Assembly: GCA_027293165.1 (NCBI GenBank)
Contig: JAPUGB010000057.1
Location: forward strand, 1-38,828
Reading direction: 5' to 3'
Origin: Gammaproteobacteria bacterium
Lineage (GTDB): Bacteria > Pseudomonadota > Gammaproteobacteria > Steroidobacterales > GCA-2729495
Length of the DNA stretch: 38,828 nt
Below the pieces are notes generated by a model. It made no database searches, was not told the DNA's origin, and was given only the letters and a program-made list of their open reading frames with translations. Below are positions 2,322-23,599 of this stretch, in pieces. The position numbers and the translations under genes were made by a program. Within the stretch, counting starts at the first letter, position 1, and each line of letters begins with the position of its first letter.

Positions 2322-2322
2322 C

Positions 2323-2844: not shown

Positions 2845-2865
2845 AGCGCGATCGATAAACCGACC

Positions 2866-4410: not shown

Positions 4411-4436
4411 TGGCCCGTCTGAAGTAGGGCGCACGC

Positions 4437-5474: not shown

Positions 5475-5476
5475 AT

Positions 5477-6136
5477 ATGGACACTGAGCCTTCAAAGGGG
5501 TTCCCAAGCATGCGATTGCTAGTCCCGGTGGTGTCGCTGGTACTGCTTGCCGCGTTGGGCGCTGCATTGATTGCCGCCACCGACCAACTGACTCGCAAGC
5601 GGGTCGCCGAAAATGAAGCGGCGCAGATCATGAAGGTTCTCGACGCATTGCTGCCCGAGGGTGGCTACGACAATTCGCCACATCTCGACGTCATCCGCTT
5701 GACTGGCGCCGAACTGCCCGCGAGCAACGCGGCCGTGCCGGTGTACCGGGCGCGCCGCGCGGGCGCGCCGGTGACCGCGATACTGACAGTGATTGCGCCC
5801 GACGGATACGTCGGTTCCATCCGGCTTCTGGTCGGTATCCGGGTAGACGGAACAATCAGTGGGGTCCGGGCGCTGGAACACCGGGAAACCCCCGGATTGG
5901 GCGACAATATCGAGCTTGGGCGCTCGGACTGGATTCGATTGTTCGACGGCCGATCGATCGAGGACCCGGCCCCGGCAGCATGGCTGACGCGGCGCGACGG
6001 TGGCGACTTCGATCAGATCAGCGGGGCAACAGTGACTAGTCGTGCGGTTATCGCGGCGGTTCGCGACTCGTTGATTTATTTTGCCGAGAATCGGGACTTG
6101 CTTTTTAGCGAGCCCGTTGACCTGGAAGTTCGCTAA
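5477..6136 (+). CDS. rnfG: Rnf/Rsx complex subunit G, periplasmic FMN protein
   Basis: 219 residues with one N-terminal membrane segment (about 13-34) and a periplasmic FMN-binding domain. The flavinylation motif is QISGATVTS at 181-188, with Thr185 as the expected FMN-linked residue. GETPGLG-like HRETPGLGDNI (135-145) is typical of RnfG/NqrC. In most gammaproteobacteria rnfE and nth follow directly. Here the next gene is convergent and unrelated, and rnfE is 16.8 kb away at 22913. The stop lies 13 bp from the stop of the convergent DUF4426 gene. Confidence 0.96.
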   Translation: MDTEPSKGFPSMRLLVPVVSLVLLAALGAALIAATDQLTRKRVAENEAAQIMKVLDALLPEGGYDNSPHLDVIRLTGAELPASNAAVPVYRARRAGAPVTAILTVIAPDGYVGSIRLLVGIRVDGTISGVRALEHRETPGLGDNIELGRSDWIRLFDGRSIEDPAPAAWLTRRDGGDFDQISGATVTSRAVIAAVRDSLIYFAENRDLLFSEPVDLEVR

Positions 6137-6149
6137 CGATGCCAGCCGC

Positions 6150-6659
6150 CTATCTGGTATAGAACTGTTTGGTGAACCGGACTGCCAAACGGCGGGTTTC
6201 GTTCTCCGGAACCACATCTATATCGAATACCAGAGTTTCCTGGTTGCTGACCGCGAATTCGCCAATGTAGTAAATGGCATCCTGCTCGGTCACCTTGCGC
6301 ATGTCGATCGATCGAAACTGGCCGGCCAGGTTTGCCGCAGCAACCTTGACCGCGCCCGCCCAGGGCTGGTCCTCACTGGCTTCGAGTTTTTTCAATATCA
6401 CGACATTCAACATGCCGCGATTGTCGCTGCGCACGATACCGGCTGACTGGGCAACCTCGGGCGGCAGTTGATTCGTTCCAAGGGCATTAACGTGCAAAAG
6501 GTAGCCGCCGAAATCCTTGTAGTTCTCGTATTCCGCCAGGCTGATGCGCTCTTCCGAAATAAAACCAACGCCTTCATCGACGCCTTCGCATGAAGACAAC
6601 CCCATCGCTGCAATTAAAACCGCGAGTAAAAAATGCGTGGAACCTATCTTCATCGACAC
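6150..6659 (-). CDS. DUF4426-family lipoprotein
   Basis: About 169 residues with an N-terminal hydrophobic segment and a lipobox-like LSSC around residues 21-24, so probably an exported lipoprotein. The FGGYLLHVNALGTNQLPPEV stretch and following GIVRSDNRGMLNVVILKK match what I recall of the DUF4426 family, whose function is unknown. It starts at GTG 6659 or ATG 6653; AAGGGAG upstream fits either. It is the last minus-strand gene after actF, 138 bp downstream, so it could be read through from the act operon or use its own promoter (-10-like TATAGT at 697-702 of the 6 kb region). A link to ACIII is not established. Confidence 0.75.
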   Translation of the reverse strand: MSMKIGSTHFLLAVLIAAMGLSSCEGVDEGVGFISEERISLAEYENYKDFGGYLLHVNALGTNQLPPEVAQSAGIVRSDNRGMLNVVILKKLEASEDQPWAGAVKVAAANLAGQFRSIDMRKVTEQDAIYYIGEFAVSNQETLVFDIDVVPENETRRLAVRFTKQFYTR

Positions 6660-6696
6660 CGGTCTCCCTTACAGTCCCGGACGTTGGGCACCGGCT

Positions 6697-6702
6697 ACTA
6701 TA
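6697..6702 (-). promoter_or_regulatory. Possible -10 element upstream of the DUF4426 gene
   Basis: On the minus strand this reads TATAGT, five of six matches to the sigma-70 -10 box, about 38 nt upstream of the gene start. The best -35 at 17 nt spacing (CAGTCA) is poor. It could give the DUF4426 gene transcription independent of the act operon. Weak call. Confidence 0.25.
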
Positions 6703-6797
6703 AACGATTCGGTTGCCAGTGACTGCCTCCCGCAGTTCGATGGTCTCGCCGGACCACTTGGTCGTCAATGTTGAATCGGTCGGCTGCAGCGACCAGG

Positions 6798-8060
6798 TCA
6801 GTAAACGGGATTTGAATCCTCGGCGTCCCTCATTTCCCAACTGGATATCATCGGGAAGATGTTCATCAACCATAGCAGTACCAGCATGAAGCCGGAAATC
6901 AACCCGAGAAAGAGAATGAGTTCAAACAACGAGGAGAACGGCACCGCATTCTCCTCCAGGGCCGGCACGACAATGAGGTAACGGTTTATCCAGACACCGA
7001 CGTTGATAACCGCTCCGATCAGCACCATCGCCCACCAGGTCCGCTTGACCGGTGCAAATATCATCGTTCCGATAGGAATGGCAATGATGCAGATCATCTG
7101 CGTCCAGAAAAGCGGCGCGTAGTGCCCATACATCTGGACCCACAACGGTCCGAATTCGTTGGGAAGATTACCGAACCAGCTAACAAAGAACTGCGCCCAG
7201 AACAAATACACCCAAAACAGCACCAGGCTGGTAAGCAGGATGCCAAGACTTTTGGCCTGGACCGTGCCGAAGTACGCGCCAAGGTCAAGAATACGCGACA
7301 TCAACGCGCCCATGACCAACATTGCCGCACTGCCGGCCACCATGCTTCCCATGGCGAAATACATCGGGAATACGCTGCTGTGGTAATGCGGCACCAGCAT
7401 CATGCCGAAATCCCAGGATATGAAGGTGTTGGAAATCACCGCGGTAATAATGATCAGCGGTGCCATCAGATACATGCAGGACTGCAGGCGCCGCGGGTCC
7501 CGGCCCTGTCCGAGCTTGGACAGAAATCGATACATCGACCTGCGCCAGGCTGGCCCCGTCGCAGCACTGTCTGCGGTGATGTCGGGTAGGAGCCCGATGA
7601 TGAAATAGGCCGCGGCGAGCAGATAAAACACGAGTTGCGCAATGAGATTGCGTACCAGCAGAAAATCCGCGTTCAGCCACGGACTCAGATGCTCGCCGGG
7701 CTCCGCCGAGAGCCAATAGAATATTTCAGTGCGCCCGTAGCAAAAAATCAGCAGAAAAACGCCAATGGCGAACGGGAAATAGGCCAGGGTCATCAGTTCC
7801 CCTAATCGATAAAAGGGCCGCGCCCATTTGGTCCGGCAAATACGCAGGATTGCAGCAAACGCCACACCGAACTGGGTGATGCCGAGCAGGTAGATATAGC
7901 TCGCAACGAAAGAGCCCCAGGGAACGGAATCGGGCGCCGTGGACAGCGTCACGCCAAGCCAGATGGCCGCGATCAGCAGCAACCCGGCGAACACTCCGAG
8001 CATCAGCCCGTAATGCCGACCGCCGGGCACGCCGGTCGATATTGCAACACTGCTATTCAT
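6798..8060 (-). CDS. actF: Alternative complex III subunit ActF, NrfD-like quinol-binding membrane protein
   Basis: 420-residue polytopic membrane protein with about ten hydrophobic segments. It is the second NrfD/PsrC-type subunit of alternative complex III, which oxidises quinol and reduces cytochrome c or the oxidase. Assignment rests on its hydrophobic pattern and its position as last gene of an actA-B-C-D-E-F order. It overlaps the actE stop by 8 bp, so translation is coupled. The small ActG subunit was not recognised downstream. Confidence 0.88.
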   Translation of the reverse strand: MNSSVAISTGVPGGRHYGLMLGVFAGLLLIAAIWLGVTLSTAPDSVPWGSFVASYIYLLGITQFGVAFAAILRICRTKWARPFYRLGELMTLAYFPFAIGVFLLIFCYGRTEIFYWLSAEPGEHLSPWLNADFLLVRNLIAQLVFYLLAAAYFIIGLLPDITADSAATGPAWRRSMYRFLSKLGQGRDPRRLQSCMYLMAPLIIITAVISNTFISWDFGMMLVPHYHSSVFPMYFAMGSMVAGSAAMLVMGALMSRILDLGAYFGTVQAKSLGILLTSLVLFWVYLFWAQFFVSWFGNLPNEFGPLWVQMYGHYAPLFWTQMICIIAIPIGTMIFAPVKRTWWAMVLIGAVINVGVWINRYLIVVPALEENAVPFSSLFELILFLGLISGFMLVLLWLMNIFPMISSWEMRDAEDSNPVY

Positions 8061-8586
8061 CGGGGCCCAGGGCTTCCTTAATGTAATTGATCAGGTTCCA
8101 ACGATCCTCGGCGACAATCGCCTGCCGGTAATAAGGCATCGCGATGCTGCCGTGGCTGATCGTGTAATAGAGCTGCCCGTCGGGTTGTAACTGGACGTAG
8201 TCCAGTGTCAGGTCCATTGGCTGTGGCACGAACTTTTGACCGACCGTTCCGTCGCCCTGCCCCTGCGCGCCATGGCATACGAGGCAATGCACCTCGTAGA
8301 GTTGACGTCCGCGATCCAGGGATTCCGGTGATTGCGCAATCGGGTTGACCAGGGTCTGGCCTGCCACCAAGCGCGCTCTGACGAGCTCAATCAGTCCGTC
8401 GGGGGCCGCAAACAACTCCCGATCGCTGACCGGAACCGATTCACTGCTGGTCACGACCACCGACTCCTGTGCCTTGACCGAGGGCTGATTCTGCATGTCC
8501 TCGTCCCAGGGCAAGCTCCAGGCCACCGCCGGAATCGCCAGCATGACGAGGCATCGCACGCGGAATCGGCCACGCTGGGGACTCAT
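8053..8586 (-). CDS. actE: Alternative complex III subunit ActE, monohaem cytochrome c
   Basis: 177 residues starting at ATG 8586, which overlaps the actD stop as ATGA; longer upstream ORFs in this frame would run into actD. A hydrophobic N-terminus (about 11-24) can serve as signal or anchor. One haem site, CLVCH at 101-105, is followed by a Met ligand candidate M150 in HGSIAMPYY, a typical class I cytochrome c fold. In ACIII this periplasmic subunit passes electrons to the soluble cytochrome or oxidase. Confidence 0.92.
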   Translation of the reverse strand: MSPQRGRFRVRCLVMLAIPAVAWSLPWDEDMQNQPSVKAQESVVVTSSESVPVSDRELFAAPDGLIELVRARLVAGQTLVNPIAQSPESLDRGRQLYEVHCLVCHGAQGQGDGTVGQKFVPQPMDLTLDYVQLQPDGQLYYTISHGSIAMPYYRQAIVAEDRWNLINYIKEALGPDE

Positions 8587-9089
8587 TGACCGTCCTCCAC
8601 CCGCCGGGTTTCTTCGGCCCCGGCTTCGCGGAGAATGGTTTCCGCGCGCAAGGCATCCGTTTCTGCAGCGCCCTCGACGACGACGACGAAGCGATCGATG
8701 TTCGATTCCGGCGCATACGGTCTGTCCCGCCATGCCGGCAGCCCCGACACGATATGAAATCCGACTAGCGTGAACAGGACGCCGAGCAAAATCGTCATCT
8801 CGTAGGCGATCACCAAGTAAGGTGGCACCGAAATAATTGCCCGCCCGCCGGTGGGCAGGATAAATACGAGCGCCGTAGCGACCGCCATCGCAAAACCGGC
8901 AACCGCGCCAATGATGGCGCCGGCCAGCGAAAAGCGCCGCACCGGGGACTTTTCCAGTCCGAGCACTTCCTGCGCTGCCTCGAGCGGCACCGGCGACATC
9001 AACGATATTCGGCCGATGCCGGCAGTCTTGACGCGCTCAGCCCCGGCGAGAAAATCTTCCTCGTACCTGAAGGTTGCCAAGACCGCCAT
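8583..9089 (-). CDS. actD: Alternative complex III subunit ActD (DUF3341)
   Basis: 168 residues. A soluble N-terminal part (1-45) is followed by two membrane helices, about 51-77 and 90-113, and then a cytoplasmic tail. This is the architecture of ActD/DUF3341, a structural subunit of ACIII without a cofactor. The start ATG shares one base with the actC stop (TGATG) and its own stop overlaps actE, so actC-D-E-F are tightly coupled translationally. Confidence 0.9.
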   Translation of the reverse strand: MAVLATFRYEEDFLAGAERVKTAGIGRISLMSPVPLEAAQEVLGLEKSPVRRFSLAGAIIGAVAGFAMAVATALVFILPTGGRAIISVPPYLVIAYEMTILLGVLFTLVGFHIVSGLPAWRDRPYAPESNIDRFVVVVEGAAETDALRAETILREAGAEETRRVEDGQ

Positions 9090-10420
9090 CAGGCGTCCCT
9101 CCTCAACGGTTTGAGGGTTTCCTTGACTTCATAAATCGAAACCGCCGGCACCCACTTGATGAAAATCAGGAACAGTGTCGTAAAGATTGCAAACGAACCG
9201 AAGGTGATCGAAAACTCGATCCAGCTCGGAAAATAGAAACCGAACGCATCGGGCAGGAATTTTCGCGGTTGCGACGTGGCCACAATAATGAATCTCTCAG
9301 TCAGCATACCGATGTTGATCAGAATGGAAACCACCAGCATCTTGTTCCACGACAAACGAATCTTCCTGAACAGCATCAATAGCGGCACAAATGCGCAGAA
9401 CAGGATCATCTCCCAATACAGTGGCGCGTAGAAACCGAACATCCGGAAATCAAGCGCCTCCATCTCGAACGAAGTGCCGCTGTACCAGGTCGTAAAGAGC
9501 TCGAGAATATTGATATAGGTCCAAAGCATCGACAACACGAGCAATAGCTTGCCAAGATAATCGAGATGTTTCTCCCCGATGTACCGCTCGAAATTCATAA
9601 ACTTCCGCAGCATATACATCACGGTCACGATGCCGGCGGTGCCCGAATAAATCGCGCCGCAGACGAAGTACGGCGCAAAAATCGTGTGGTGCAGCCCCGG
9701 CACAATGGACAGTGCGAAATCCCAGGACACGATGCTGTGTACAGAGACCGCCAGTGGAATGACGAATACGGCAAAAAACATGTAGGCCGCCCCCAGCGTG
9801 TGCCACTCCCTGGCAGTACCGCGCCAGCCAAAGGAAAAGACCGTATACAGTCGGCGGCGTATGCCGGTGCTGACGTCGCGGACCGCGGCGAAATCAGGAA
9901 CCGAGCCCATGTAGATGAATATCGAGCTGGCCGTCAGATAGGTCGTAATCGCCATGACGTCAAACATCAGGGGCGAGCGGAAATTCGGCCACAGTCCCAT
10001 CGGGTTCGGGATCGGAAAACTCCAGTGCACGAACCACAACCGCCCCACATGGACCATGACGAACAGCGCGGCCGTCATCAGCGAGAACAGAGTCATCGCC
10101 TCCGCGCTGCGGTAGATCGATTTGCGCCACTGGCTGTTGGTAATGTGCAGCACTGCCGACAGCAGAGTCCCGGAGTGACTGAGGCCGATCCAGAAAATGA
10201 AGTTCGACAGGTAGGTGCCCCAAAGCGCATTTCGATTCATCCCGGCCGCGCCCACGCCGACAATTAACTGATAGATCCACGGCATGAAAAAGCAGACACC
10301 GGCGATCGTCATCGTGGTACCGAGCAGCATCCAGTAACGCGGGCCCGTCTCCAACATGGAGCTGAGGACATCACGGTTAACTTCTGCGTAGGTGGGTTGC
10401 CCGTGATCAAACATCGTCAT
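9089..10420 (-). CDS. actC: Alternative complex III subunit ActC, NrfD-like quinol-binding membrane protein
   Basis: 443 residues, about ten transmembrane segments, NrfD/PsrC family. Conserved features include HSGTLLSAVLHI, WDFALSIVPGLHHTIFAPYF and MEALDFRMFGFYAPLYWEM, seen in ActC/HybB-like proteins. In ACIII it binds menaquinol or ubiquinol near the periplasmic side and hands electrons to the Fe-S subunit. The first ATG (10420) overlaps the actB2 3' end by 14 bp; an alternative ATG lies 6 bases further in. Confidence 0.93.
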   Translation of the reverse strand: MTMFDHGQPTYAEVNRDVLSSMLETGPRYWMLLGTTMTIAGVCFFMPWIYQLIVGVGAAGMNRNALWGTYLSNFIFWIGLSHSGTLLSAVLHITNSQWRKSIYRSAEAMTLFSLMTAALFVMVHVGRLWFVHWSFPIPNPMGLWPNFRSPLMFDVMAITTYLTASSIFIYMGSVPDFAAVRDVSTGIRRRLYTVFSFGWRGTAREWHTLGAAYMFFAVFVIPLAVSVHSIVSWDFALSIVPGLHHTIFAPYFVCGAIYSGTAGIVTVMYMLRKFMNFERYIGEKHLDYLGKLLLVLSMLWTYINILELFTTWYSGTSFEMEALDFRMFGFYAPLYWEMILFCAFVPLLMLFRKIRLSWNKMLVVSILINIGMLTERFIIVATSQPRKFLPDAFGFYFPSWIEFSITFGSFAIFTTLFLIFIKWVPAVSIYEVKETLKPLRRDA

Positions 10421-11162
10421 GAACTTTTTTCAGGTAGATGACCGACGGGACCGTATTCAACTCCTCCAGCACCTTGTAGCCTCGCGGACTGTTCATGACC
10501 TGGGAGACCTTGCTGTCGGGGTCGTTGCTGTCGCCAAAGCTCATAGCCTCTGTCGGGCAGCTCTGAACGCAGGCCGGTACGACCTCGCCGTCCCGCACGC
10601 GCCTTCTGCCGTCGTCCTTGGCATTGTCTTTGGCCATCCGGATGCGTTGAATGCAGAAGGTGCATTTTTCCATGACGCCTTTTTCACGAACGCTGACGTC
10701 CGGATTCAACTGCTGCTCGAGCGGCTCGTCCCAGGTATAGGTAAACCAGTTGAAATAGCGGACCTCGTAAGGACAGTAAACGGCGCAGGTCCGCGTACCG
10801 ATGCAGCGATTATAGATTTGCGTATTCAATCCGTCCTGATTGTGGTAAGTCGCAAATACCGGGCACGCCGTTTCGCAGGGAGCCTCGTCACAATGCTGGC
10901 ACAGCATCGGAATGAAATTCAGCTTGACGTCCGGAAACTCTCCCTCCCAATATCGTTCGATCCGAATCCATTTGATCTCCCGGGCTTCCGCATACCGCTC
11001 CTCACCGACGATGGGTAGATTGTTCTCCGCCTGACAGGCAACGACACATGCTTCGCAACCGGTGCACCGATCAAGGTCGATTGTCATCGTCCAGTGATAA
11101 TCGAACTCGTCGTAATAACCGGGCTTACTGTATTCCCTGAGTTTGTCGAGCACGTTACTCAT
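10407..11162 (-). CDS. actB2: Alternative complex III Fe-S subunit (ActB C-terminal half, separate gene)
   Basis: Periplasm-facing Fe-S protein of about 251 residues with four cluster sites: CTGCEACVVAC, CQHCDEAPCETACP, CIGTRTCAVYCP and CTFCIQR...CVQSCP. The third site has Thr where a Cys is expected (CIGTRTC), the hallmark of the ActB/NrfC group and consistent with one 3Fe-4S plus three 4Fe-4S clusters. In many ACIII operons this is the C-terminal half of one large ActB; here it is a separate gene. ATG 11162 is preferred, with GGAAG 5 nt upstream and a 14-nt gap to the actB1 stop. A GTG at 11180, overlapping the actB1 stop, is possible. Confidence 0.93.
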   Translation of the reverse strand: MSNVLDKLREYSKPGYYDEFDYHWTMTIDLDRCTGCEACVVACQAENNLPIVGEERYAEAREIKWIRIERYWEGEFPDVKLNFIPMLCQHCDEAPCETACPVFATYHNQDGLNTQIYNRCIGTRTCAVYCPYEVRYFNWFTYTWDEPLEQQLNPDVSVREKGVMEKCTFCIQRIRMAKDNAKDDGRRRVRDGEVVPACVQSCPTEAMSFGDSNDPDSKVSQVMNSPRGYKVLEELNTVPSVIYLKKVHDDV

Positions 11163-11176
11163 ATCAACTTCCGATC

Positions 11177-13414
11177 TCACGCATGGTTTTCCTCCGGGTG
11201 CAGAATCTGCCTGCCGAGCGTTCGGGAAATGCCGTCGTTTCGGACCACTCGCGCCCGTTCGCCGGTATTGCGCAGCTTCACGCGGGTCCCGGCCCAGGCC
11301 AGTTCGCCCGACTGCTGGTCAGACTGCAGCGCAACCAGCTGAACCGGGTTGACGCCACGATTTTGCGCGTAGCGTCCATAGGCCGTGTGTCCCTGACCAA
11401 AAGGCATTGCCACGACTCCAGGCTCAATCGCCGGGAACAAATACGCCGGTGCGCGAATACTGCCCGCCGGCGATTCGACCTCGATCAGGTCCCCATCACG
11501 AATGCCGAGCTCGCCAGCGGTGGCTGGATTCAGTTCGATCCAGGATCCGTAAACAACGCTGGTCATCTGGTCGGGTAATTCCTGCAGCCACGGCAAATTT
11601 GCTCCCCGGCCGTCGAACAGCGTCGCGCTCAGATAGGGGTGCAGAATGAACGGAAACTCTGCCGTGTCGCCGGCAAAGGTCGCGGCCGCAGCGTCTATAT
11701 CGGGAATCGTCGATGGCGCCGGGGCATCGCCGGGTCCGCCGGTCGCCTCGACTCGGCCCCACACGCCGGCTTGCAGGGCTGCCAGCCAGAACTCTTCAAA
11801 ATCCGCAGCGTCGGCCTGCGGGTCAAGCTCTGTGTAGAGCTTCTTCCACGCGTCCTTGATGAATTCTTTTGTGTTGGCCCACGGCAGCGCGACCGGCAAT
11901 TCGAAACCAATCCGGCGCGCCAGCGACAACACGATGTCGCCAACCGAGCGGGTGTCATAGACGCGCGCCACGACCGGTTGCGAAATCGACGCCACCGGCA
12001 GGCCGACTCCGGGCTCCGGCGCGTCGTCACCCCAGGCCTCAAGATAAGTGTCGGTGGGCAAAATCAGATCAGCCATCGCCGTCGTCTCATCCATGAAACT
12101 CGACATAGCCACAATGGTCGGGACCGCTGCCATTGCATCAGCAAAACCGGCGGCGTCCGGCATCGCGTAGATCGGGTTCGTGTCATGCAGCAACAGCACT
12201 TCGATCGCCCCGTCCTGCATCGAAGCAGCAAGTTCGGTCATTTGCGTCAATCCGGCGTGCCGTGTTGCGGAACCAAATACCGGTGCGGAGTTAAAAATGA
12301 TGCCGCCGGGTTGACCGAGATTGCCTGCAAGGTGATTCAAAGCATTCACCGCAACGAGACTGGCGACGGCGTTGGTACCTGCCGCCGCCGCGCCGCCGCC
12401 AATCGCAAGGCTTGCCTTACTGCTGCCAAATTCAGCGGCGAGTTGTTGCACGCGCTCCAACGCCACCCCGGTGGCCGCGGCAACGCGGTCCCCGCTGTAC
12501 GGCTCTAAGGCACGCTGCCACGCGTCGCGATCCGACCCGGTGTACGTCCCGTCCGCAACCAGGATCCTGGCGATTCCCAGCGCGAGTACGCCCTCGCTGC
12601 CGGGAACAGCAGCAATCCACTCATCGGCATTCGCCCCGCTCAGTGACATGCGCGGCTCGATCTGGATGCACCTGCCGCGCTGCTCACGTCCCTGGCGCAG
12701 CTGTCCGTAGCCGAGGCTGAAATGCACCGGCGACAGCCAGGTCCCCAGGTAATCGGCTCCAAACGACAGCAGAAAATCGCAATTCGCTATGTCGTAGTAG
12801 GGCAGGTGCTCGATGCCAAATGACAGCCGGTTAGCCAGCCTGAGGTTGGCCGGATAGGTAAAATCGTACTGGGCATATCGATCAGAGCCCAGCAACGTGA
12901 TGAACTGCTCAAACAGCTCACCCAGGTGACCGCGTATGCCGCCCGTTAGCAGTTGGACCCGGTCCGCTCGATCTTCAATCTTCAGGCGCCCGAGGCGCCC
13001 GGCAACCTGGGTCAGCGCCTCATCCCAGCTGATTGTTTCGAAAGCTCCATCACCGCGTTCGCCGACCCGCTTCAACGGGGCCCTGATCCGATCCGGGTTG
13101 TACAAGGCATTCAGCCCCGCCTGACCGCGCGCGCACAAGCGCCCCTGGTTGACCGGATGCGCCGGGTTGCCCTCGATTTTCTTCGCCCGCCCCTCTCGGG
13201 TACGCACCGAGATACCGCAACCCGCGGAACACTGGTTGCAAACCGTGTTGTACCAGGTCGCAACACCGGGAGAATAATCTTCGGGAGGAACAACCGGTGG
13301 AATCAGGAACTCGACCGGGCGCTTAATCGCTTCCGCAAACAAATATCCGGCCCCGGTTCCGACTCCGCCGGCCCCGATATATTGCAACAAATCTCTGCGG
13401 CTAATTTTCGACAT
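11177..13414 (-). CDS. actB1: Alternative complex III molybdopterin-oxidoreductase-like subunit (ActB N-terminal half, separate gene)
   Basis: 745 residues. The N-terminus carries a twin-arginine motif (SRRDLLQ, 5-11) and a hydrophobic stretch, so export by Tat is expected. The MopB fold follows, with NPDRIRAPLKRVG, WDEALTQVA and a C-terminal molybdopterin-dinucleotide-type domain (WIELNPATAGELGIRDGD). A full CxxCxxxC...C site is present at C59/C62/C66/C94, as in true molybdoenzymes. No Cys or Sec is seen at the usual Mo-ligand region, so a catalytic Mo centre is doubtful. GAGGGG 4 nt before the ATG is a good ribosome-binding site. The gene is 114 bp after actA. Confidence 0.92.
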   Translation of the reverse strand: MSKISRRDLLQYIGAGGVGTGAGYLFAEAIKRPVEFLIPPVVPPEDYSPGVATWYNTVCNQCSAGCGISVRTREGRAKKIEGNPAHPVNQGRLCARGQAGLNALYNPDRIRAPLKRVGERGDGAFETISWDEALTQVAGRLGRLKIEDRADRVQLLTGGIRGHLGELFEQFITLLGSDRYAQYDFTYPANLRLANRLSFGIEHLPYYDIANCDFLLSFGADYLGTWLSPVHFSLGYGQLRQGREQRGRCIQIEPRMSLSGANADEWIAAVPGSEGVLALGIARILVADGTYTGSDRDAWQRALEPYSGDRVAAATGVALERVQQLAAEFGSSKASLAIGGGAAAAGTNAVASLVAVNALNHLAGNLGQPGGIIFNSAPVFGSATRHAGLTQMTELAASMQDGAIEVLLLHDTNPIYAMPDAAGFADAMAAVPTIVAMSSFMDETTAMADLILPTDTYLEAWGDDAPEPGVGLPVASISQPVVARVYDTRSVGDIVLSLARRIGFELPVALPWANTKEFIKDAWKKLYTELDPQADAADFEEFWLAALQAGVWGRVEATGGPGDAPAPSTIPDIDAAAATFAGDTAEFPFILHPYLSATLFDGRGANLPWLQELPDQMTSVVYGSWIELNPATAGELGIRDGDLIEVESPAGSIRAPAYLFPAIEPGVVAMPFGQGHTAYGRYAQNRGVNPVQLVALQSDQQSGELAWAGTRVKLRNTGERARVVRNDGISRTLGRQILHPEENHA

Positions 13415-13528
13415 GATCCCCTCGGTCGCGAACGCCGTTCGGCGCTCGGTCAGCCTACAAGCTACGCGCGTCCCCCGGTTGCTCAGGCGATTTTCCGCCG
13501 GCGATCGCTGTCATCCCGACAGTTTCAG

Positions 13529-14074
13529 TTACTTGTGGCATGTCCAACAGTCCCGGCCATTCTCAACCTCGCGCTCGGTATGGCAATCCACACACCAGGG
13601 CATCGTCATCGGCGCGATGCGCGTAATGCGATCCATGTCCTGAACCGGGCCATGACATTCCTGGCACTGCACGCCGGCCAGAACGTGTCTTTTGTGCGTG
13701 AAATGAACGAAGTCCGGCACGTCGTGCACCTTGACCCACGGTATCGGCTCCTGCCGGTCCCAGTATCCGGCGAGTTTCAACACCTCCGGCCGTTCCCGTG
13801 CGTCGGCGACGGCCGTATGGCAACCCATACACTTGGCCACGCTTGGCACGCCGGCTGAGGGAGACCTCGACGCATATATGTGGCAATACTGGCACGGAAT
13901 TTCATTGTCACTGGCATGAACGCGGTGACTGAATTCGATCGGCTGGACCGGCGTGCGGTCCGAAAAGTAGGTGTCGTTGATCCAAACCCCCACAAAAATA
14001 CCGACCACTGCGACAACCCCGATCAGGGCTGGCTTTCTAGCAGGCCTCAGCGCTTCGGATACAGAGATCGACAA
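13529..14074 (-). CDS. actA: Alternative complex III subunit ActA, pentahaem cytochrome c
   Basis: 181 residues with one N-terminal membrane anchor (about 14-32) and five CXXCH haem sites at 61-65, 82-86, 137-141, 161-165 and 176-180. FSHRVHA and FTHKRHV supply likely distal histidines. This matches the membrane-anchored pentahaem ActA/cytochrome c7-like subunit that begins ACIII operons. The start is TTG, chosen because GGGGAGGG lies 6 nt upstream and no ATG or GTG fits. First gene of a minus-strand operon running to actF. Confidence 0.93.
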   Translation of the reverse strand: MSISVSEALRPARKPALIGVVAVVGIFVGVWINDTYFSDRTPVQPIEFSHRVHASDNEIPCQYCHIYASRSPSAGVPSVAKCMGCHTAVADARERPEVLKLAGYWDRQEPIPWVKVHDVPDFVHFTHKRHVLAGVQCQECHGPVQDMDRITRIAPMTMPWCVDCHTEREVENGRDCWTCHK

Positions 14075-14352
14075 CTTGTCCCTCCCCCGTTTGGGGCATG
14101 ATTCTGCCCGTAACCCGGGAAAACTACAATGTTCCGCTGCAGAACTTTTCCGACGCTGCCGGGCCGCGGTCGATCGATGGATTTAAGGTGAACACAAACC
14201 ATATCTTTGCTTCGCGCGCTTGTTGGAGCCGCATACAGCGGCTGAGGGGCGGTTGTGTGCGCGCCCTGCGCGTGCTTGCACCCCGGCATAGAGTTCGGTA
14301 GCGTGTACGCCGAAATTCCGAGTCTAAAGGCCAACGTCTGCGGCAGGGGATG
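14075..14352. other. Divergent intergenic region between actA and the c4-type cytochrome
   Basis: 278 bp separating the minus-strand act operon from the plus-strand cytochrome/oxidase half, so promoters for both directions should be here. A perfect hairpin AGCCGC-ATACA-GCGGCT lies at 14227-14243 without a T-run. On the plus strand TTGCAC at 14276-14281 with a 17-nt spacer to TAGCGT is a weak sigma-70 candidate. No convincing -10 was found for the minus strand. No ORF here resembles a known protein. Confidence 0.5.
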
Positions 14353-15000
14353 ATGAACAACTTTTTCCGTGCGACAATATTCCTGATTTTCGTATTCGTC
14401 AGCAGCGCAGCGGCGCACGCCGCCGGCGACCCGATAAAAGGCAAAGAGCTTTTTATATTTTGCATGGCCTGTCACGGTCAAAGTGCTGAAGGCGTACCGG
14501 CGCTGAATGCTCCGGCGAATGCCGGCCAGGATCTCTGGTACATGCTCCGGCAGATGAAGAACTTCCGCGCCGGAATTCGTGGCGCTCACCCGGACGATAT
14601 ATTTGGTGCGCAAATGCGGCCAATGGCACTGACATTGCCTGACGAGCAAGCGGTGCAGGATGTCGTGACGTATATTGCGACCTTGGACCTGCCGGACCCA
14701 CCCGTGACAATAGAAGGTGATATCGAAGCCGGCAAAAAGGCGTACGAGACCTGCATTCCCTGCCACGGCGCGCAGGGTGAGGGCGCCAAGGCACTCGATG
14801 CACCGCGGTTGTCGAGACAGCACGACTGGTATCTCGTGTCCCAACTGAACAACTTCAAAGCCGGCATTCGCGGCACGCATCAAAACGACGTCTACGGTGC
14901 GCAGATGCGCATCATGGCGCAGATGCTGGAAACCGACGAACAGGTTCGGGATGTAGCCGCTTATATAGCCAGCATGGAGTATGTTCCCGGCGAGGAGTAA
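14353..15000 (+). CDS. Dihaem c4-type cytochrome c (first copy)
   Basis: About 215 residues with a signal peptide ending near AAAHA at 19-23 and two tandem class I cytochrome c domains. In numbering from ATG 14350 the haem sites are CMACH 38-42 and CIPCH 135-139, and Met ligands lie in the repeated AQMRPMA/AQMRIMA motifs. The ATG at 14353 leaves a little room after AGGGG; an ATG at 14350 abuts it. Likely a periplasmic electron carrier between ACIII (divergent, 276 bp away) and the oxidase. Domain order and motifs match the second copy (15664) and the CoxB tail (17865). Confidence 0.93.
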   Translation: MNNFFRATIFLIFVFVSSAAAHAAGDPIKGKELFIFCMACHGQSAEGVPALNAPANAGQDLWYMLRQMKNFRAGIRGAHPDDIFGAQMRPMALTLPDEQAVQDVVTYIATLDLPDPPVTIEGDIEAGKKAYETCIPCHGAQGEGAKALDAPRLSRQHDWYLVSQLNNFKAGIRGTHQNDVYGAQMRIMAQMLETDEQVRDVAAYIASMEYVPGEE

Positions 15001-15021
15001 TTGCCGCCAGCGCCAGAAATT

Positions 15022-15420
15022 TTACTCATCATCGGATCGCATCAGGTACATTGACGGTCCGAAGATCTCTTCACTGTTTACAGACAAACGAACGCGGTAC
15101 TGGCCCGCGACAGGGAACATGACTTTTTCCATCGGCAATACCAATTGAGTTTTAGCGGGGGCGCCGTTCGTTGGCCGGGACTCGACGTCGGTGTGTCCGT
15201 CAATAGAAAACACCGAGATACCGTCCGGATCAGTCAAGTCAATCTTGAACGGAATGCGGCCTTGAGTGTGCCGTTCCCATTCGATCACACCCGCCAGAAC
15301 CAGGCGATCCTGGCGGGCCGGAAAATCCGCAGCGTACAGTTCATTGAACACACCCTGAATATTGAGGCGCCCGTCGGGCCCCGTCGTAGCGCCCTTGCAG
15401 AATAACAATATGGATTCCAT
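15022..15420 (-). CDS. Small conserved protein, possibly DUF6941 family
   Basis: 132 residues, acidic C-terminus, no signal peptide or membrane segment. The pattern LNIQGVFNELYAADFPA, a central IDLTDPDG and a closing GQYRVRLSVNSEEIFG suggests an all-beta sandwich. I recall it as DUF6941-like, function unknown. It lies convergent with the first c4 cytochrome (stop codons 21 bp apart) and divergent from the second. No good ribosome-binding site precedes its ATG. Whether it has anything to do with respiration is unknown. Confidence 0.6.
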   Translation of the reverse strand: MESILLFCKGATTGPDGRLNIQGVFNELYAADFPARQDRLVLAGVIEWERHTQGRIPFKIDLTDPDGISVFSIDGHTDVESRPTNGAPAKTQLVLPMEKVMFPVAGQYRVRLSVNSEEIFGPSMYLMRSDDE

Positions 15421-15521
15421 GGATAGACAACCGTGGCTGGTTTACGACGTTCTGGGTGGGCCCTGGCGACCGCATCGCGACCGGCTTCCAACAAGCCGAC
15501 CGCAGTGTATCATTCGCATAT

Positions 15522-15550
15522 TGACCGATCATGCCGGGTGACCGATCATG
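15522..15550. repeat. Two direct copies of TGACCGATCATG, 17 bp apart
   Basis: TGACCGATCATG occurs at 15522-15533 and again at 15539-15550, exact over 12 bp with a 17-bp period. It lies in the divergent region between the DUF6941-like gene and the second c4 cytochrome, 114-142 bp upstream of the latter's start. Tandem spacing of roughly one and a half helical turns suggests a binding site for a dimeric or oligomeric regulator. No ORF is interrupted. Confidence 0.6.
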
Positions 15551-15663
15551 TGCCACAACGCAAAGGGACTGCCATCCGGGGATGATCAGCGCAAAACAGA
15601 CGGCAGTAGCCCGTGTGTATCACGGGTATAGGCACGCACAAACACGACAGCCGGAGGCACAAG

Positions 15664-16293
15664 ATGAATAGCCAAGTATTGAACGGGATGGTCGCTTTAC
15701 TCGCTTTTGGCGTTGCATTTTCCGCGTACGCGGCGGGCGACCCCGCCAAAGGGAAGGCAGCGTATGAAATCTGTGCGGTCTGTCACGGCGCCAGCGGCGA
15801 AGGGACCCCGGAACTGAATGTGCCGAAGATCGGCGGACAGGAAGAGTGGTACGTCGCGAGGCAATTGCAGAATTTCAAATCCGGTCTGCGCGCGCCTACA
15901 ACCAGTGATGTGTACGGAACCCAGATGCGGGCGCTCAGCATGACGCTGACAAACGACCAGGAGATTGCCGACGTATCTGCCTACGTGGCTTCAATGAGGC
16001 CGCCCGCGGTGGCAGACACGGTTAGCGGTGACGCGGCCCAGGGTAAAGCCGCTTATGCGACCTGCACCGCTTGTCACGGCGCCAACGGCGAAGGCAACAA
16101 GGCGCTGAATTCGCCGAAACTGGCCGGTCAGCACGACTGGTACATCGTTCGCCAGCTGCAGAATTACAAATCCGGCGTGCGCGGCGGTGACTCGAAAAAC
16201 GTGTTTGATACGCAGATGCGTCCGATGGCTATGATTCTGACCACCGACGAGGCGGTCAACAACATCGCCGCCTACATCAATTCGCTGGATTAG
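15664..16293 (+). CDS. Dihaem c4-type cytochrome c (second copy)
   Basis: 209 residues starting at ATG 15664, where GGAGG lies 6 nt upstream; the longer upstream reading has no such site. The signal peptide ends near FSAYA (19-23). Two haem domains carry CAVCH (37-41) and CTACH (134-138), with Met candidates in TQMRALSM and TQMRPMAM. The two halves and the first copy (14353) share GEG...LN.PK..GQ..WY..RQLQN and MR.M patterns, so they are paralogues. Probable periplasmic electron donor to the caa3 oxidase encoded downstream. Confidence 0.95.
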   Translation: MNSQVLNGMVALLAFGVAFSAYAAGDPAKGKAAYEICAVCHGASGEGTPELNVPKIGGQEEWYVARQLQNFKSGLRAPTTSDVYGTQMRALSMTLTNDQEIADVSAYVASMRPPAVADTVSGDAAQGKAAYATCTACHGANGEGNKALNSPKLAGQHDWYIVRQLQNYKSGVRGGDSKNVFDTQMRPMAMILTTDEAVNNIAAYINSLD

Positions 16294-16337: not shown

Positions 16338-17294
16338 TCAGGAGGCGATCTCGTCTTTCATCGTGGCGTAGGCAGCCGGACCTATTTCCATGTAGAGTTC
16401 ACGCCAGCGGCGCGCGTCGATATATTCGCGGAACGTTTCCGATTCACCCTCGAGTTCCTCAATACGCGTCTTGACGACGTCGCCAATGCTGATGACCCCG
16501 ACCAGCTCATCGCCGTCCATGACCGGTAAATGGCGAATGCGCCGATCGCTCATGCAGGCCATGATGAGAACCATGTTGTCCTCCGGGTGCGCGACCACGA
16601 CTTTCCGTGTCATGATTTCGGCGACCGGCTGGTTAATGACACCGGGCCCAAAATCCGACAGGCCGCGCACGATGTCCCGTTCCGAGACGACCCCGGCGAT
16701 GCTGCCGTCGGGATGGATCACCAGCACACTGCCGATCCGGTTCTGGCGCAAAATGTTGGCGGTATCGATGACCCGGTCATCCGGCTTAACCGAAATGACA
16801 TTTCCGCCTTTCTTTTCAAGAATTGTCGCAACGGTGACGCGGTAGGCCCATTCGCGTTCATGAATCACGCGAATCCAGTTGTCCATCAACTGCGCACAGG
16901 TCTCCTCAAAGCGGGTCCGAAAGCGCACCCGGTCCAACAACCGACCGAAGGGTCCATACTTCGTTGCGTATTCATAACGCATTCGGATCAGTATGTTTTT
17001 AGGCCCTTCTTCGATGCTCCAGGTGAACTTCATCTTGGAGAACGAAAACGGGTAGCCGCTCGTATCCACCCGCATGCTGTAGCTTTTGCCCTCGTCCCAG
17101 GCAATGACCTCCTCTACCCAGGAGTTGCCGCGACGGTCGTACACGCGGCGGCGCAGGCCCATTTTCTCCCCGCTGAGAATTTCGACCCTGCTGACATGAG
17201 GGGCCACTTCGGCCAGACCCCGCACATCCGCGATCACCTGCCATACCATGTCGGCATGCGCCTTCACGCGTCTCCGCATATCAAGTACAGGCAT
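16338..17294 (-). CDS. SRPBCC (START-like) domain fused to a tandem CBS pair
   Basis: 318 residues. Residues 1-145 form a polyketide-cyclase/SRPBCC-like domain (VWQVIADVRGLAEVAPHV at the N-terminus, LMDNWIRVI at its end). CBS domains follow at about 153-212 (GVVSERDIVR) and 225-280 (GVISIGDVVK), then a charged tail. CBS pairs usually bind adenine nucleotides; SRPBCC domains bind hydrophobic ligands. The protein looks cytoplasmic, with no signal or TM. ATG 17294 is chosen because AAGGAG lies 5 nt upstream. Being between the cytochromes and the oxidase operon suggests, but does not prove, a regulatory role in respiration. Confidence 0.85.
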   Translation of the reverse strand: MPVLDMRRRVKAHADMVWQVIADVRGLAEVAPHVSRVEILSGEKMGLRRRVYDRRGNSWVEEVIAWDEGKSYSMRVDTSGYPFSFSKMKFTWSIEEGPKNILIRMRYEYATKYGPFGRLLDRVRFRTRFEETCAQLMDNWIRVIHEREWAYRVTVATILEKKGGNVISVKPDDRVIDTANILRQNRIGSVLVIHPDGSIAGVVSERDIVRGLSDFGPGVINQPVAEIMTRKVVVAHPEDNMVLIMACMSDRRIRHLPVMDGDELVGVISIGDVVKTRIEELEGESETFREYIDARRWRELYMEIGPAAYATMKDEIAS

Positions 17295-17751
17295 ATCGAC
17301 TCCTTGGGACGGCGCCAACGTTAACCGTAATTAACGCGTCTGCCATCCGCGATCATCCTACCGCTTCGCCGGACGCAACGAGAACCGCGTCGCAACAGCA
17401 TCGGGTGCGGAGCGATGAGCAGTGCGTCAAAACACCATAATCGATACGCCTAAGCATTTGTATGGGCAAGACAATTTCACCGCGCGGTTCGGCATGCCGG
17501 CCGGTTGCGAGGCCCCTGAGCTTCCAGTACCATTCGCCGCAACGTGGAAGGTTTCCGCAAACGGGAGCTAACGTGGGGTTATTGTCCGAGTGATGCCAAC
17601 ACGGTGAGGCATCGGTCCGAAGCTGCGCCCATCAGTTCTCTGTATTTGCACGGAGCATTTCTGGTCTTCTTCATCATTGCGATTACCTGCCGGCCCGGGA
17701 TGAATGACACGTCATCCGGGCGTCGGGTCCGTGTTGCCGTTGGGGGAAAAC
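17295..17751. other. Long intergenic leader before the cox operon, with hairpin
   Basis: 457 bp between the SRPBCC-CBS gene and the small ORF before coxB. It contains a near-palindrome with GTTAA...TTAAC arms at 17320-17335, and a hairpin at 17693-17721: arms GCCCGG and CCGGGC, continued by ATGA/TCAT with one bulged G and an 8-nt loop. A weak 72-codon GTG ORF (17544-17762) lacks a ribosome-binding site. No strong sigma-70 promoter was recognised. The unusual length for this compact region suggests regulatory content. Confidence 0.4.
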
Positions 17752-17865
17752 ATGCGCGATAAACGCACGCAAGCAATAGATGCGGCGGTCGATGGGCATT
17801 TCATTCAGCCGCTTCGGTTCCTGAAACGGCCTCAAACAACCTGGCACGCGAAAGGGATTAGCTGA
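17752..17865 (+). CDS. Candidate 37-residue ORF coupled to coxB
   Basis: An ATG at 17752, preceded by GGGGGA with 4 nt spacing, opens a 37-codon ORF. Its TGA (17863-17865) shares its last base with the coxB ATG (TGATG). The product would be basic and hydrophilic (starts MRDKRTQAIDAA), with no membrane segment or known domain. The overlap and ribosome-binding site are what coupled genes look like, but a protein this short could be chance. If real it is a leader peptide or small subunit that sets coxB translation. Confidence 0.35.
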   Translation: MRDKRTQAIDAAVDGHFIQPLRFLKRPQTTWHAKGIS

Positions 17866-19220
17866 TGGCGTTAGCAGTCGTATTGATTCTATTGGTCGTC
17901 GGCTCAGTCGTGTTTCACTTCTGGAGCCCCTGGTGGTTTCCGCCGATCGCATCCAACTGGGGCACGATCGACGACACGATCATTCTCACGTTCTGGGTCA
18001 CCGGCATCGTATTCATTGCCGTTAACCTGTTCATGGCGGTTGCCCTGATTCGCTACCGCGCCAGAGAGGGGCAGAAGGCGGCCTACGAACCCGAGAACAA
18101 GAAGCTCGAACTGTGGCTGACGATCGTCACCGGGGTCGGTGTCGTCGCGATGCTGGCTCCCGGCCTGTTCGTATGGGCCAACTTCGTCCAGGTGCCGGAG
18201 GGCGCCGCCGAGTTTGAGGCGCTGGGTCAGCAGTGGCATTGGAGCTTCCGCCTGCCCGGAAAGGACGGCGTCATGGGCACCAGCGAAATCGCGTTTGTCA
18301 GCCAGCAGAACCCGTTCGGCCTGACCCCCGACGATCCCGACGCCCAGGATGACCTGTTGATTGAAGGGGATCCATTGCATCTGCTGATCGATCAGCCGGT
18401 CAAGATGCTGCTTCGCTCCAAAGACGTCCTGCACGATTTCGCGGTGCCGCAATTCCGGGTCAAAATGGACCTCGTACCGGGCATGGTGACGTACGCGTGG
18501 CTTACACCCACTGCGATCGGTAGGTTCGAAATTCTCTGCGAAGAATTATGCGGCATCGCGCACCATGCGATGCGCAGCCTGGTCGTCGTGGACGACCAGG
18601 CCAGCTACGATGCCTGGGCCGAAACCCTGCCGACGTTCGCGGAAACGATGGCGGCAGTACCGGGTGATGCCGCGGCAGGCGAAGCTCTCTACCCAGTCTG
18701 TGGCGCCTGCCATGGCGCACAGGGCGAAGGCATTCAGTTGCTGAATTCGCCGAAATTGAGCGGCCAGGAGGACTGGTACCTGAAACGGCAAATCATCAAC
18801 TACAAGCAGGGTCGTCGGGGTACGCATCAGGACGATCTGTTTGGCCGGCAAATGGCGCCTATGGCTGCGACCCTGTTCGATGAGGGCGCGATCGATAACG
18901 TCATCGCCTATATCGGAACCTTGCCGGATACGCCGGCGGAGGCGACGGTGACCGGTGACGTGGAGCGCGGCGAGCGCCTGTATGAAATCTGCGGCATCTG
19001 TCACGGCGTTAACGGCCAAGGCAACTGGGGTGTCAGTGCTCCCCAGCAGGCCGGCATGAGTGACTGGTATATGGTCACTCAGTTGAAAAATTTTCAGCGA
19101 GACATTCGCGGTGGCCACCCCCACGATGCGTTTGGTCGCCAAATGGCTGCCATGGCAAAAATTCTGGGCGATGATGAGGCCATCAATGACGTCGTTGCCT
19201 ACATCAACACCCTGCAATGA
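17865..19220 (+). CDS. coxB: caa3-type cytochrome c oxidase subunit II with two fused haem c domains
   Basis: 451 residues. Three hydrophobic segments (about 2-25, 38-63, 84-107) precede the CuA cupredoxin domain, with ligands H190, C225, E227, C229, H233 and M236 (CEELCGIAHHAM). Two c4-like haem domains follow: CGACH 279-283 and CGICH 376-380, with RQMAPMA and RQMAAMA for the Met ligands. Most caa3 subunits II carry one haem c; this has two, closely similar to the free c4 cytochromes upstream. It receives electrons from ACIII or c4 and passes them to CuA. AAGGG lies about 8 nt upstream of the ATG. Confidence 0.95.
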   Translation: MALAVVLILLVVGSVVFHFWSPWWFPPIASNWGTIDDTIILTFWVTGIVFIAVNLFMAVALIRYRAREGQKAAYEPENKKLELWLTIVTGVGVVAMLAPGLFVWANFVQVPEGAAEFEALGQQWHWSFRLPGKDGVMGTSEIAFVSQQNPFGLTPDDPDAQDDLLIEGDPLHLLIDQPVKMLLRSKDVLHDFAVPQFRVKMDLVPGMVTYAWLTPTAIGRFEILCEELCGIAHHAMRSLVVVDDQASYDAWAETLPTFAETMAAVPGDAAAGEALYPVCGACHGAQGEGIQLLNSPKLSGQEDWYLKRQIINYKQGRRGTHQDDLFGRQMAPMAATLFDEGAIDNVIAYIGTLPDTPAEATVTGDVERGERLYEICGICHGVNGQGNWGVSAPQQAGMSDWYMVTQLKNFQRDIRGGHPHDAFGRQMAAMAKILGDDEAINDVVAYINTLQ

Positions 19221-19301
19221 TTGACGGCATCGATTGCAGGACTAACGAATGAGATTTGTGCCGACTGCTAGCACTGCACAAACGGCGAAGAGGAGCTTCT
19301 G

Positions 19302-21073
<1,772 letters not shown>

Positions 21074-21077
<4 letters not shown>

Positions 21078-21691
21078 ATATCATTAAAGAGCTGATGGAT
21101 CGATCCTGGGAGACCCCAGGTATTCCCGAAGACGTGCAGGCCGATGGCGCCATTCCGACGACGCCGTCGGCGAAAATCGGACTCGGTTTCTTTCTTGCCG
21201 TTGTCACGTCGATGTTCTCGTTGTTCACCGTCGCCTACATCATGCGCATGGAGTATGCGGACTGGCAGTCCCTGCCCGACCCCGGACTGCTGTGGCTAAA
21301 CACGATCATGCTGATTCTAAGCAGCGTCGCCATGCATCGTGCCAAGCGTGCCGCGCTGCGCGGCGAGGTCCGAGGAGTCCGCACCGGCCTGATCATCAGT
21401 GGCGTTCTCAGTTTTGCTTTTCTGGCCGGCCAGTTACTGGCCTGGCGGCATCTCAACGCCGCAGGGTATTTCATAGCCAACAATCCGGCCAACGCGTTCT
21501 TTTACGTGATCACCGGGCTGCACGGGTTGCACCTGTTGGGTGGTTTATGGGTCTGGGGCAAAACCATCACCAAGGTCGGGCGTGGCCTTGAGGTGCGGGA
21601 CCTGAGCTTGAGCGTGGAACTGTGCACAACTTACTGGCATTACCTGCTGCTGGTCTGGCTGGTCCTGTTCGGTCTGCTGTTGTCTACATAG
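21074..21691 (+). CDS. Haem-copper oxidase subunit III, first copy
   Basis: 205 residues, about five membrane helices after a hydrophilic N-terminus. CoxC-type motifs are GQLLAWRHL, GLHGLHLLGGLWVW and TTYWHYLLLVWLVLF. It starts with TTG overlapping the coxA stop (TTGA); ATG 21095 is an alternative. In the same operon a second subunit III gene follows 14 nt later, so the oxidase may hold two different subunits III, or one may serve as an assembly partner. Confidence 0.9.
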
Positions 21692-21705
21692 AAGGATCAA
21701 CCCGT

Positions 21706-22407
21706 ATGGCCTATGAGGCGGTGACGAATACAGGGGAAACCCTGGCTGTAGCTGAGACCCACGGATGGAACAGCGTTATCTCCGACTGGTCTGCCGACAA
21801 GCAAACCTTCGGGGTCCCCTGGGGCAAGGCGATGATGTGGATATTCCTGCTCAGCGATATCTTCATTTTCAGCTGTTTCCTGATCGGCTACATGAGCGTG
21901 CGCATCGCCACGACGGAACCGTGGCCAGATACCAGTGAGGTCTTTGCGATGACCATTGCCGGTCAGCATATTCCGTTGCTCCTGATCGCGATCATGACCT
22001 TCATCCTGATCAGCAGCAGCGGCACGATGGCCATGGCGGTGAATTTCGGCTACCGCCGCGACAAGAAAAAAACCGCGGCGTTGATGCTGGCTACCGCAGC
22101 ATTCGGTGCCGCGTTTGTCGGCATGCAGGCTTTTGAGTGGACCAAACTGATCGTCGAGGAAGGCGTGCGACCCTGGGGCAATCCGATGGGTGCACCGCAG
22201 TTCGGCTCGAGTTTTTTCATGATCACGGGTTTCCATGGCGCACACGTAACCGCCGGGGTGATCTACCTGCTCGTCGTAGCCAAAAGGGTCATCACCGGTT
22301 TTTATGACCGCAAGGGAAGCTACGAAACGGTAGAGATCACAGGCCTGTATTGGCATTTTGTGGATCTCGTCTGGGTATTCATCTTCGCGCTGTTCTATCT
22401 TTGGTAA
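21706..22407 (+). CDS. Haem-copper oxidase subunit III, second copy
   Basis: 233 residues starting at ATG 21706 with AAGGA 9 nt upstream. The upstream extension of this frame overlaps the first copy and is not needed. About six membrane segments. MQAFEWTKLI, GFHGAHVTAGVIYL and GLYWHFVDLVWVFIFALFYLW are the canonical subunit III motifs, closer to typical CoxC than the first copy. Part of the coxB-A-C-C-D run. Confidence 0.92.
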   Translation: MAYEAVTNTGETLAVAETHGWNSVISDWSADKQTFGVPWGKAMMWIFLLSDIFIFSCFLIGYMSVRIATTEPWPDTSEVFAMTIAGQHIPLLLIAIMTFILISSSGTMAMAVNFGYRRDKKKTAALMLATAAFGAAFVGMQAFEWTKLIVEEGVRPWGNPMGAPQFGSSFFMITGFHGAHVTAGVIYLLVVAKRVITGFYDRKGSYETVEITGLYWHFVDLVWVFIFALFYLW

Positions 22408-22912: not shown

Positions 22913-23599
22913 ATGAACGAATTCAGGCAAATATTTCTGGATGGGCTGTGGCGGAACAATCCGGGCCTGACGCAAATGCTCGGCATCTGCCCGTTGCTGG
23001 CCGTCAGTAATACACTGATCAACGGGCTGAGCCTCGGCATTGCGACAAGCCTGGTATTGATCGCGACCAGCGCACTGGTTTCCTTGACACGCCGCTGGCT
23101 TTTTTTCGAGCTGCGGTTGCCCATGTTCGTGCTGATCATCGCCTCACTGGTGACGGTGGTGGAGCTGCTGTTTCAGGCGTTTTTTTACGAGCTGTACCTT
23201 GGCCTTGGCATCTTCGTTCCGCTGATCGTCACCAATTGCCTGATTCTCGGGCGGGCTGAGGTGTTTGCATCGCACCGGGCCTGGCTGCCCTCTGCCGCCG
23301 ATGGCCTCGCCCAGGGCGCCGGCTTTACGCTGGTACTCGTCGTGCTCGGCGGTCTGCGCGAGATCATCGGGCGTGGGAGTCTGTTACACGGAGCAGACAT
23401 GCTGTTCGGCCGTGGGGCCGCAGCGCTGGAAATTACTATTCTGCCCGGCAACAACGGCTTGCTGATGGTGCTGCTGCCACCGGGCGCTTTTCTGAGCCTG
23501 GCATTGCTGGTTGCACTCAAGAATCACCTGACCGGTCTCCAAACGGCACGGCAAACGAGCAAGGCACTGCTGCACGCTGATGCCGAGGCCGCCGGTTGA
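22913..23599 (+). CDS. rnfE: Rnf/Rsx complex subunit E
   Basis: 228 residues, about six membrane segments, homologous to RnfA. It has NNPGLTQMLGICPLLAVSN at the N-terminus and IFVPLIVTNCLILGRAE in the middle, the two cysteine-bearing half-repeats. GGLREIIGRGSLL is also conserved. It is needed with RnfA to form the ion- and electron-conducting membrane core, but lies 16.8 kb away from rnfG. No obvious ribosome-binding site precedes its ATG. The stop overlaps the nth start (TTGA), keeping the classical rnfE-nth pairing. Confidence 0.96.
   Translation: MNEFRQIFLDGLWRNNPGLTQMLGICPLLAVSNTLINGLSLGIATSLVLIATSALVSLTRRWLFFELRLPMFVLIIASLVTVVELLFQAFFYELYLGLGIFVPLIVTNCLILGRAEVFASHRAWLPSAADGLAQGAGFTLVLVVLGGLREIIGRGSLLHGADMLFGRGAAALEITILPGNNGLLMVLLPPGAFLSLALLVALKNHLTGLQTARQTSKALLHADAEAAG

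Follow-up and report, generated by a model that had tools for sequence, protein, structure and literature searches.

An SRPBCC-CBS fusion gene among respiratory genes and its possible role in nucleotide-linked control

A gene that joins an SRPBCC domain to two CBS domains lies between ACIII (act) genes and cox genes in the window, by which we mean the whole 38,828-nucleotide stretch of gammaproteobacterial DNA that was analysed. This placement raises the question of whether the encoded protein belongs to respiration and, if so, how it might act there. A sequence-only reading had called the architecture uncommon and proposed that it could sense a hydrophobic ligand (e.g., quinone, a haem precursor, or lipid) along with ATP/AMP or NAD(P)H and so tune the act/cox system. 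Both domains are of known kinds; what is new is their union within a respiratory context. Among the papers listed in searches of the open-licence PMC literature, there was no description of an SRPBCC-CBS protein in respiration, nor any report of ACIII and a CBS domain together.

The fusion gene and its domains

The gene and its parts are as follows.

16338-17294, minus strand: SRPBCC-CBS-CBS fusion gene, 318 aa (open reading frame, Pfam, homologues)
17300-17305, minus strand: Shine-Dalgarno sequence AAGGAG, 5 nt before the ATG
16878-17285, minus strand: SRPBCC / Polyketide_cyc2 (START-like) domain, residues 4-139 (PF10604, PF03364)
16413-16814, minus strand: CBS pair, about residues 161-294 (Pfam and nucleotide motifs)
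16341-16412, minus strand: C-terminal extension past the CBS fold, residues 295-318 (the last 24)

The reading frame runs from an ATG at 17294-17292 to a TGA at 16340-16338; an alternative in-frame start, a TTG at 17318, would lengthen the protein by 8 aa. The ribosome-binding site is strong, as had been claimed. Comparison of the window gene with its homologue in genome G001 (the L003 relative, 91% identical) gave a dN/dS of 0.14 overall, 0.23 for the SRPBCC half and 0.13 for the CBS half, and 13 further full-length homologues were found beyond G001. The frame is therefore beyond chance, and we conclude that the gene is real and that both of its halves are maintained.

The proposal that both domains share one frame was borne out, since each scored above its Pfam cut-off. 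PF10604 matched at 53.8 bits (cut-off 27.4) over profile positions 4-136 of 142, i.e., nearly the whole domain, PF03364 matched at 31.9 bits (cut-off 23.4), and PF00571 (CBS) at 73.4 bits in two stretches. Both CBS domains exceeded the cut-off, and each contained a predicted nucleotide motif. Six further fusions analysed with Pfam also had both domains above the cut-off, with PF10604 scores of 30.2-54.0 bits.

The CBS nucleotide motif is defined as G-x-x-S/T-x-x-D. Degenerate ligand sites in both domains had been named as evidence that would count against a sensor; the CBS motifs G201-x-x-SERD207 and G266-x-I-S-I-G-D272 are intact and invariant in 15/15 fusions, as is R254-H-L-P257. These motifs hardly vary among 54 stand-alone relatives, where the serine positions carry S or T, and are largely common to the best solved relatives of the CBS half, 3fhm, 4fry, and 2rc3, which we take to have been crystallised with AMP/NAD-type ligands. 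Residues 295-318 showed zero nonsynonymous changes between the window (G000) and G001. Three residues towards the C-terminus (L281, S285, and R295) do not vary among the fusions, and the stand-alone CBS proteins of this set mostly have other residues there or lack the positions; these residues do not prove a fusion-specific interface, because a partly similar tail is present in 3fhm.

The SRPBCC half has few invariant polar residues. M1, W18, P32, R49, G56, W59, E61, G114, G117, N139, and I144 are invariant in eight aligned fusions, and M1, W18, and G117 only across all 15. In the two members of family f5 (G040 and G054), this half is just 18-19% identical to that of the window, and PF10604 is still detected. 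An AlphaFold2 model built from two sequences had a mean pLDDT of 35, too low a quality for judging the SRPBCC pocket.

No DNA-binding domain was found on the fusion among Pfam or NCBIfam matches, so any control that it exerts would be post-translational; the term "regulator" used in the sequence-only reading survives in that sense alone. A transcriptional regulator was accordingly rejected as a candidate, the NCBIfam regulator matches (PrdR etc.) covering the CBS part only and lying far below the cut-off.

Distribution and origin of the fusion

With a search profile (A1) built from ten fusions, the full-length fusion was detected in 14 out of 396 genomes of the order (E <= 1e-35), in 3 out of 369 genomes of a class sample, one of them new (G513), and in 1 out of 398 genomes of a phylum sample, this being the window's own (E <= 1e-42). 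The distinct fusion genomes total 15, a figure drawn from overlapping samples at strict cut-offs that would miss weaker fusions. The remaining genomes listed matched the CBS half alone, and no match reached further than into the linker. The single relative returned by a scan of GTDB contigs, L003, appears to be contig G001:C47 itself. The architecture is indeed uncommon, as the sequence-only reading had it.

In a tree of the CBS part comprising the 15 fusions and 54 stand-alone relatives, a single branch (97/97; recovered in 98% of bootstrap trees) separated the fusions from the rest. This grouping favours a single origin of the fusion within the sampled set. A search of 40 genomes of the family with the SRPBCC half by itself recovered just the 7 fusions plus a weakly matching stand-alone protein (G024, 50.7 bits), and on this basis we rejected the idea that family members carry the fusion in split form.

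Gene neighbourhoods in the window and in relatives

The genes around the fusion in the window are the following; act names were assigned by resemblance and order, and ActD by Pfam (PF11821, 120 bits).

1740-6136, plus strand: rnfABCDG (Pfam/NCBIfam)
6150-6659, minus strand: DUF4426 gene, right after rnfG and 9.7 kb from the fusion
6798-14074, minus strand: ACIII genes, namely actF (6798), actE (8053), actD (8583), actC (NrfD; 9089), FeS subunit (10407), actB (11177), and actA (13529)
14350-15000 and 15613-16293, plus strand: diheme c4-like cytochromes
15022-15420, minus strand: DUF6941 gene
17865-22407, plus strand: oxidase genes coxB, coxA, and two COX3-like ORFs
22913-23599, plus strand: rnfE, apart from rnfABCDG

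The act genes are on the strand of the fusion, with the two plus-strand cytochromes and the minus-strand DUF6941 gene in between, and the cox genes, from 17865 onward, are on the opposite strand. Separately, the CoxB frame (17865-19220) ends in a diheme c4-like cytochrome with two Cytochrom_C stretches, in addition to the two free-standing c4-like cytochromes (14350 and 15613). The overlapping frames 21074-21691 and 21622-22407 both match COX3, and their homologues are adjacent in L138 (G016). A DUF6941 gene also lies beside act genes in G051, a genome of another family (L035:17701-18105).

Four arrangements of the fusion with respiratory genes were observed. In the first (G009, G031, G007, G020, and G014, of groups g7/g9), metG-rnfABCDG is followed by the DUF4426 gene and the fusion as a minus-strand pair spaced -1 to 21 bp apart. 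The pair is divergent from an aa3-type cox operon, beyond which a c4-like cytochrome, rnfE, and nth are found where contigs extend. The DUF4426 gene is the direct downstream neighbour of the fusion in all five of these genomes (identified by Pfam in 4/5). In the second arrangement (the window and G001, whose short contig shows the act and cytochrome side alone), the window keeps the gene order of the first, but the stretch 6798-16293, with the ACIII and DUF6941 genes and both c4-like cytochromes, separates DUF4426 from the fusion. The oxidase also differs from that of the first arrangement: coxA is about 40% identical, and CoxB is fused to a diheme c cytochrome. Over 6150-16293, then, ACIII, c4-like cytochromes, and DUF6941 separate two genes that are adjacent in five relatives, and this block looks like an insertion into an rnf-cox locus.

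In the third arrangement, that of family f16 (G051, G064, G085, G094, and G075), the fusion is the last gene of the act operon, lying 19-22 bp after actF in the same direction in 5/5 genomes. The sequence-only reading had pointed to the strand opposite to cox as something often seen in regulators. The opposite strand in the window is a fact; its orientation is uninformative, because the f16 gene is co-directional with act. A DUF4332 (helix-hairpin-helix) gene comes next after the fusion in four of the five f16 loci as read (L035:8959-9363, L097:10442-10846, L099, and L100). The fourth arrangement comes from the distant genome G513, where the fusion and a solitary rnfC are divergently oriented and DUF4426 lies beyond rnfC.

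Two observations break the pattern. Near the fusion of the f5 members, no act, cox, or rnf genes were found. Conversely, in the close relative G022 (L132) the order rnfABCDG-DUF4426-cox is kept and the fusion is absent, so the oxidase there does not require it. An f5 locus has ThsB-TIR-like and actin-like (ALP_N) genes near the fusion (L039:14260-14709 and L039:2842-3879, respectively); an actin-like gene is also near the fusion in f16 loci, which hints at an older neighbourhood common to both families.

An act, cox, rnf, or c4 match within 1.5 kb was found at 13/15 fusion loci versus 0/72 stand-alone CBS loci, a comparison biased towards the fusions, since the window and two fusion loci supplied the proteins used as neighbour references; the 13 loci are not independent and reduce to about four arrangements. 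Homologues are thus not scattered over unrelated neighbourhoods. The respiratory setting and the act/cox neighbours that the sequence-only reading had proposed hold for these loci and fail for f5, and the partners must be widened, since Rnf genes neighbour the fusion as frequently as act genes do.

An ActB-like protein was detected in 46/396 genomes of the order (E <= 1e-60), a set that includes 7 of the order's 14 fusion genomes (hypergeometric P 3e-4, relatedness not corrected for). The other 39 of the 46 have no fusion; a general ACIII subunit, which would be present wherever act genes are, was rejected on this count. A marker of bc1 replacement was ruled out as well: cytochrome b was found in 16/16 genomes (the 15 with the fusion plus G022; the match in G094 was weaker), so the fusion is not tied to bc1 loss. 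Given these counts and the G022 locus, we conclude that the fusion protein is an optional accessory and not a core subunit.

Possible roles and comparison with known systems

Our leading interpretation, to which we give a probability of about 35%, is that nucleotide sensing by the CBS pair gates a quinone- or lipid-binding SRPBCC domain docked on quinone-linked complexes. The fusion would be a cytosolic protein with two inputs. Its CBS pair, judging by the motifs, would bind adenine nucleotides (NAD(H) and/or AMP-type). Binding would alter the grip of the SRPBCC domain on a hydrophobic ligand, for which a quinone or a membrane lipid is the likeliest candidate, and also docking on the cytoplasmic face of ACIII, of Rnf, or of the oxidase chain that they feed. 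Quinone supply or complex activity would in this way be matched to the redox/energy state, transcription being left untouched.

In its favour are the respiratory neighbours at 13/15 fusion loci versus 0/72 stand-alone CBS loci, the position directly after actF in 5/5 f16 genomes, and the invariant CBS motifs. Published work is consistent with such a role. PMC2577659 places PF10604/PF03364 in the superfamily of Coq10. The START domain of Coq10 accommodates CoQ in a hydrophobic tunnel, and respiration depends on it (PMC11541779). PMC8552683 gives ActC and ActF as the predicted quinol-binding subunits of ACIII and describes ACIII isolated together with an aa3/caa3 oxidase. Against the interpretation stand the f5 loci outside any respiratory cluster, the G022 locus, and the 39 ActB genomes lacking the fusion. 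It is also weakened by the sequence matches of the SRPBCC half to solved proteins, the best of which are polyketide cyclases rather than Coq10, by a much better-scoring PF03364 protein elsewhere in the genome, and by the cytochrome b in all 16 genomes checked. The more specific version, in which the CBS pair reads cytosolic NADH/AMP and the SRPBCC domain delivers or withholds quinone for ACIII/Rnf-linked electron transport, we consider doubtful; if true, it would provide a post-translational link from the cytosolic energy state to the quinone pool.

Among the alternatives, first place goes to an equally doubtful one, a membrane-recruitment factor, in which a CoxG-like SRPBCC domain would tether another enzyme or a complex to the membrane at times set by the CBS pair, no quinone being bound. 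PMC11962113 describes CoxG-like proteins as the membrane anchors of glycerol-3-phosphate dehydrogenase in Sulfolobus, and the neighbours of the fusion do encode membrane complexes. However, ACIII, Rnf, and the oxidase are integral to the membrane and need no anchor, and the Pfam matches are to PF10604/PF03364, with no CoxG family among them at E 0.001.

Next, and unlikely in our estimate, Rnf (or the DUF4426 protein) would be the old partner, the closeness to cox and act being secondary. The tight fusion-DUF4426 pairs beside rnfABCDG in all five g7/g9 genomes, the G513 locus with its lone rnfC and adjacent DUF4426, and the window's DUF4426 gene directly after rnfG all fit this view. It is opposed by f16, where the fusion belongs to the act operon and the stretches read contain no rnf gene, and by G022, which retains rnf and DUF4426 without the fusion.

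Ranked after this, and likewise improbable, is a generic energy-sensing CBS protein whose location is inherited synteny without a functional message. The reduction of the 13 loci to about four independent arrangements speaks for it, as do f5 and G022, which break the link. Yet a single inherited block cannot explain all loci, given that the partners differ among arrangements (rnf with aa3 cox, act with another cox, act alone, rnfC), and none of the 72 stand-alone CBS loci has respiratory neighbours within 1.5 kb. Least probable of all is a CBS-regulated enzyme, aromatase/cyclase-like or acting on another small molecule, perhaps a quinone precursor or breakdown product, to which the polyketide cyclase relatives point but which the few invariant polar residues of the SRPBCC half disfavour.

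Under the leading interpretation of nucleotide-gated binding and docking, the fusion may adjust respiration to the energy state of the cell. Apparently, no such protein has been described in the open-licence PMC literature as controlling ACIII and Rnf post-translationally in response to cytosolic nucleotides. As a small soluble protein encoded by the last gene of act operons, it is easy to express or delete, which makes the idea directly testable.

Four known systems resemble the fusion in part. Polyketide cyclases of the TcmN kind are the closest solved sequences for its N-terminal half, but the match is weak (E about 1e-4 to 2e-3), and the fusion has no polyketide context. CoxG-like membrane anchors have the SRPBCC fold; the fusion differs in having no CoxG Pfam match, in carrying CBS domains, and in having integral membrane neighbours. 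Work with redox enzymes at the membrane, described for CoxG-like proteins in PMC11962113, would be common to both. The START-domain coenzyme Q chaperones Coq10/RatA (PF03364) share with the fusion a superfamily, a PF03364 score above the cut-off, and a respiratory theme, whereas the best model for the fusion is PF10604 and a CBS pair is attached. A Coq10/RatA orthologue was rejected, the fusion being neither a stand-alone START protein nor its genome's best PF03364 protein: a protein at another locus scores 113.9 bits, versus 33.3 bits for the fusion locus, and is presumably the real RatA/Coq10 homologue. Finally, the stand-alone CBS pairs (ATU1752 3fhm / 4fry / 2rc3) align with the CBS half of the fusion end to end, including SERD, RHLPV, and SIGD, and differ from it in having no SRPBCC domain and, at the 72 loci compared, no act, cox, or rnf gene within 1.5 kb.
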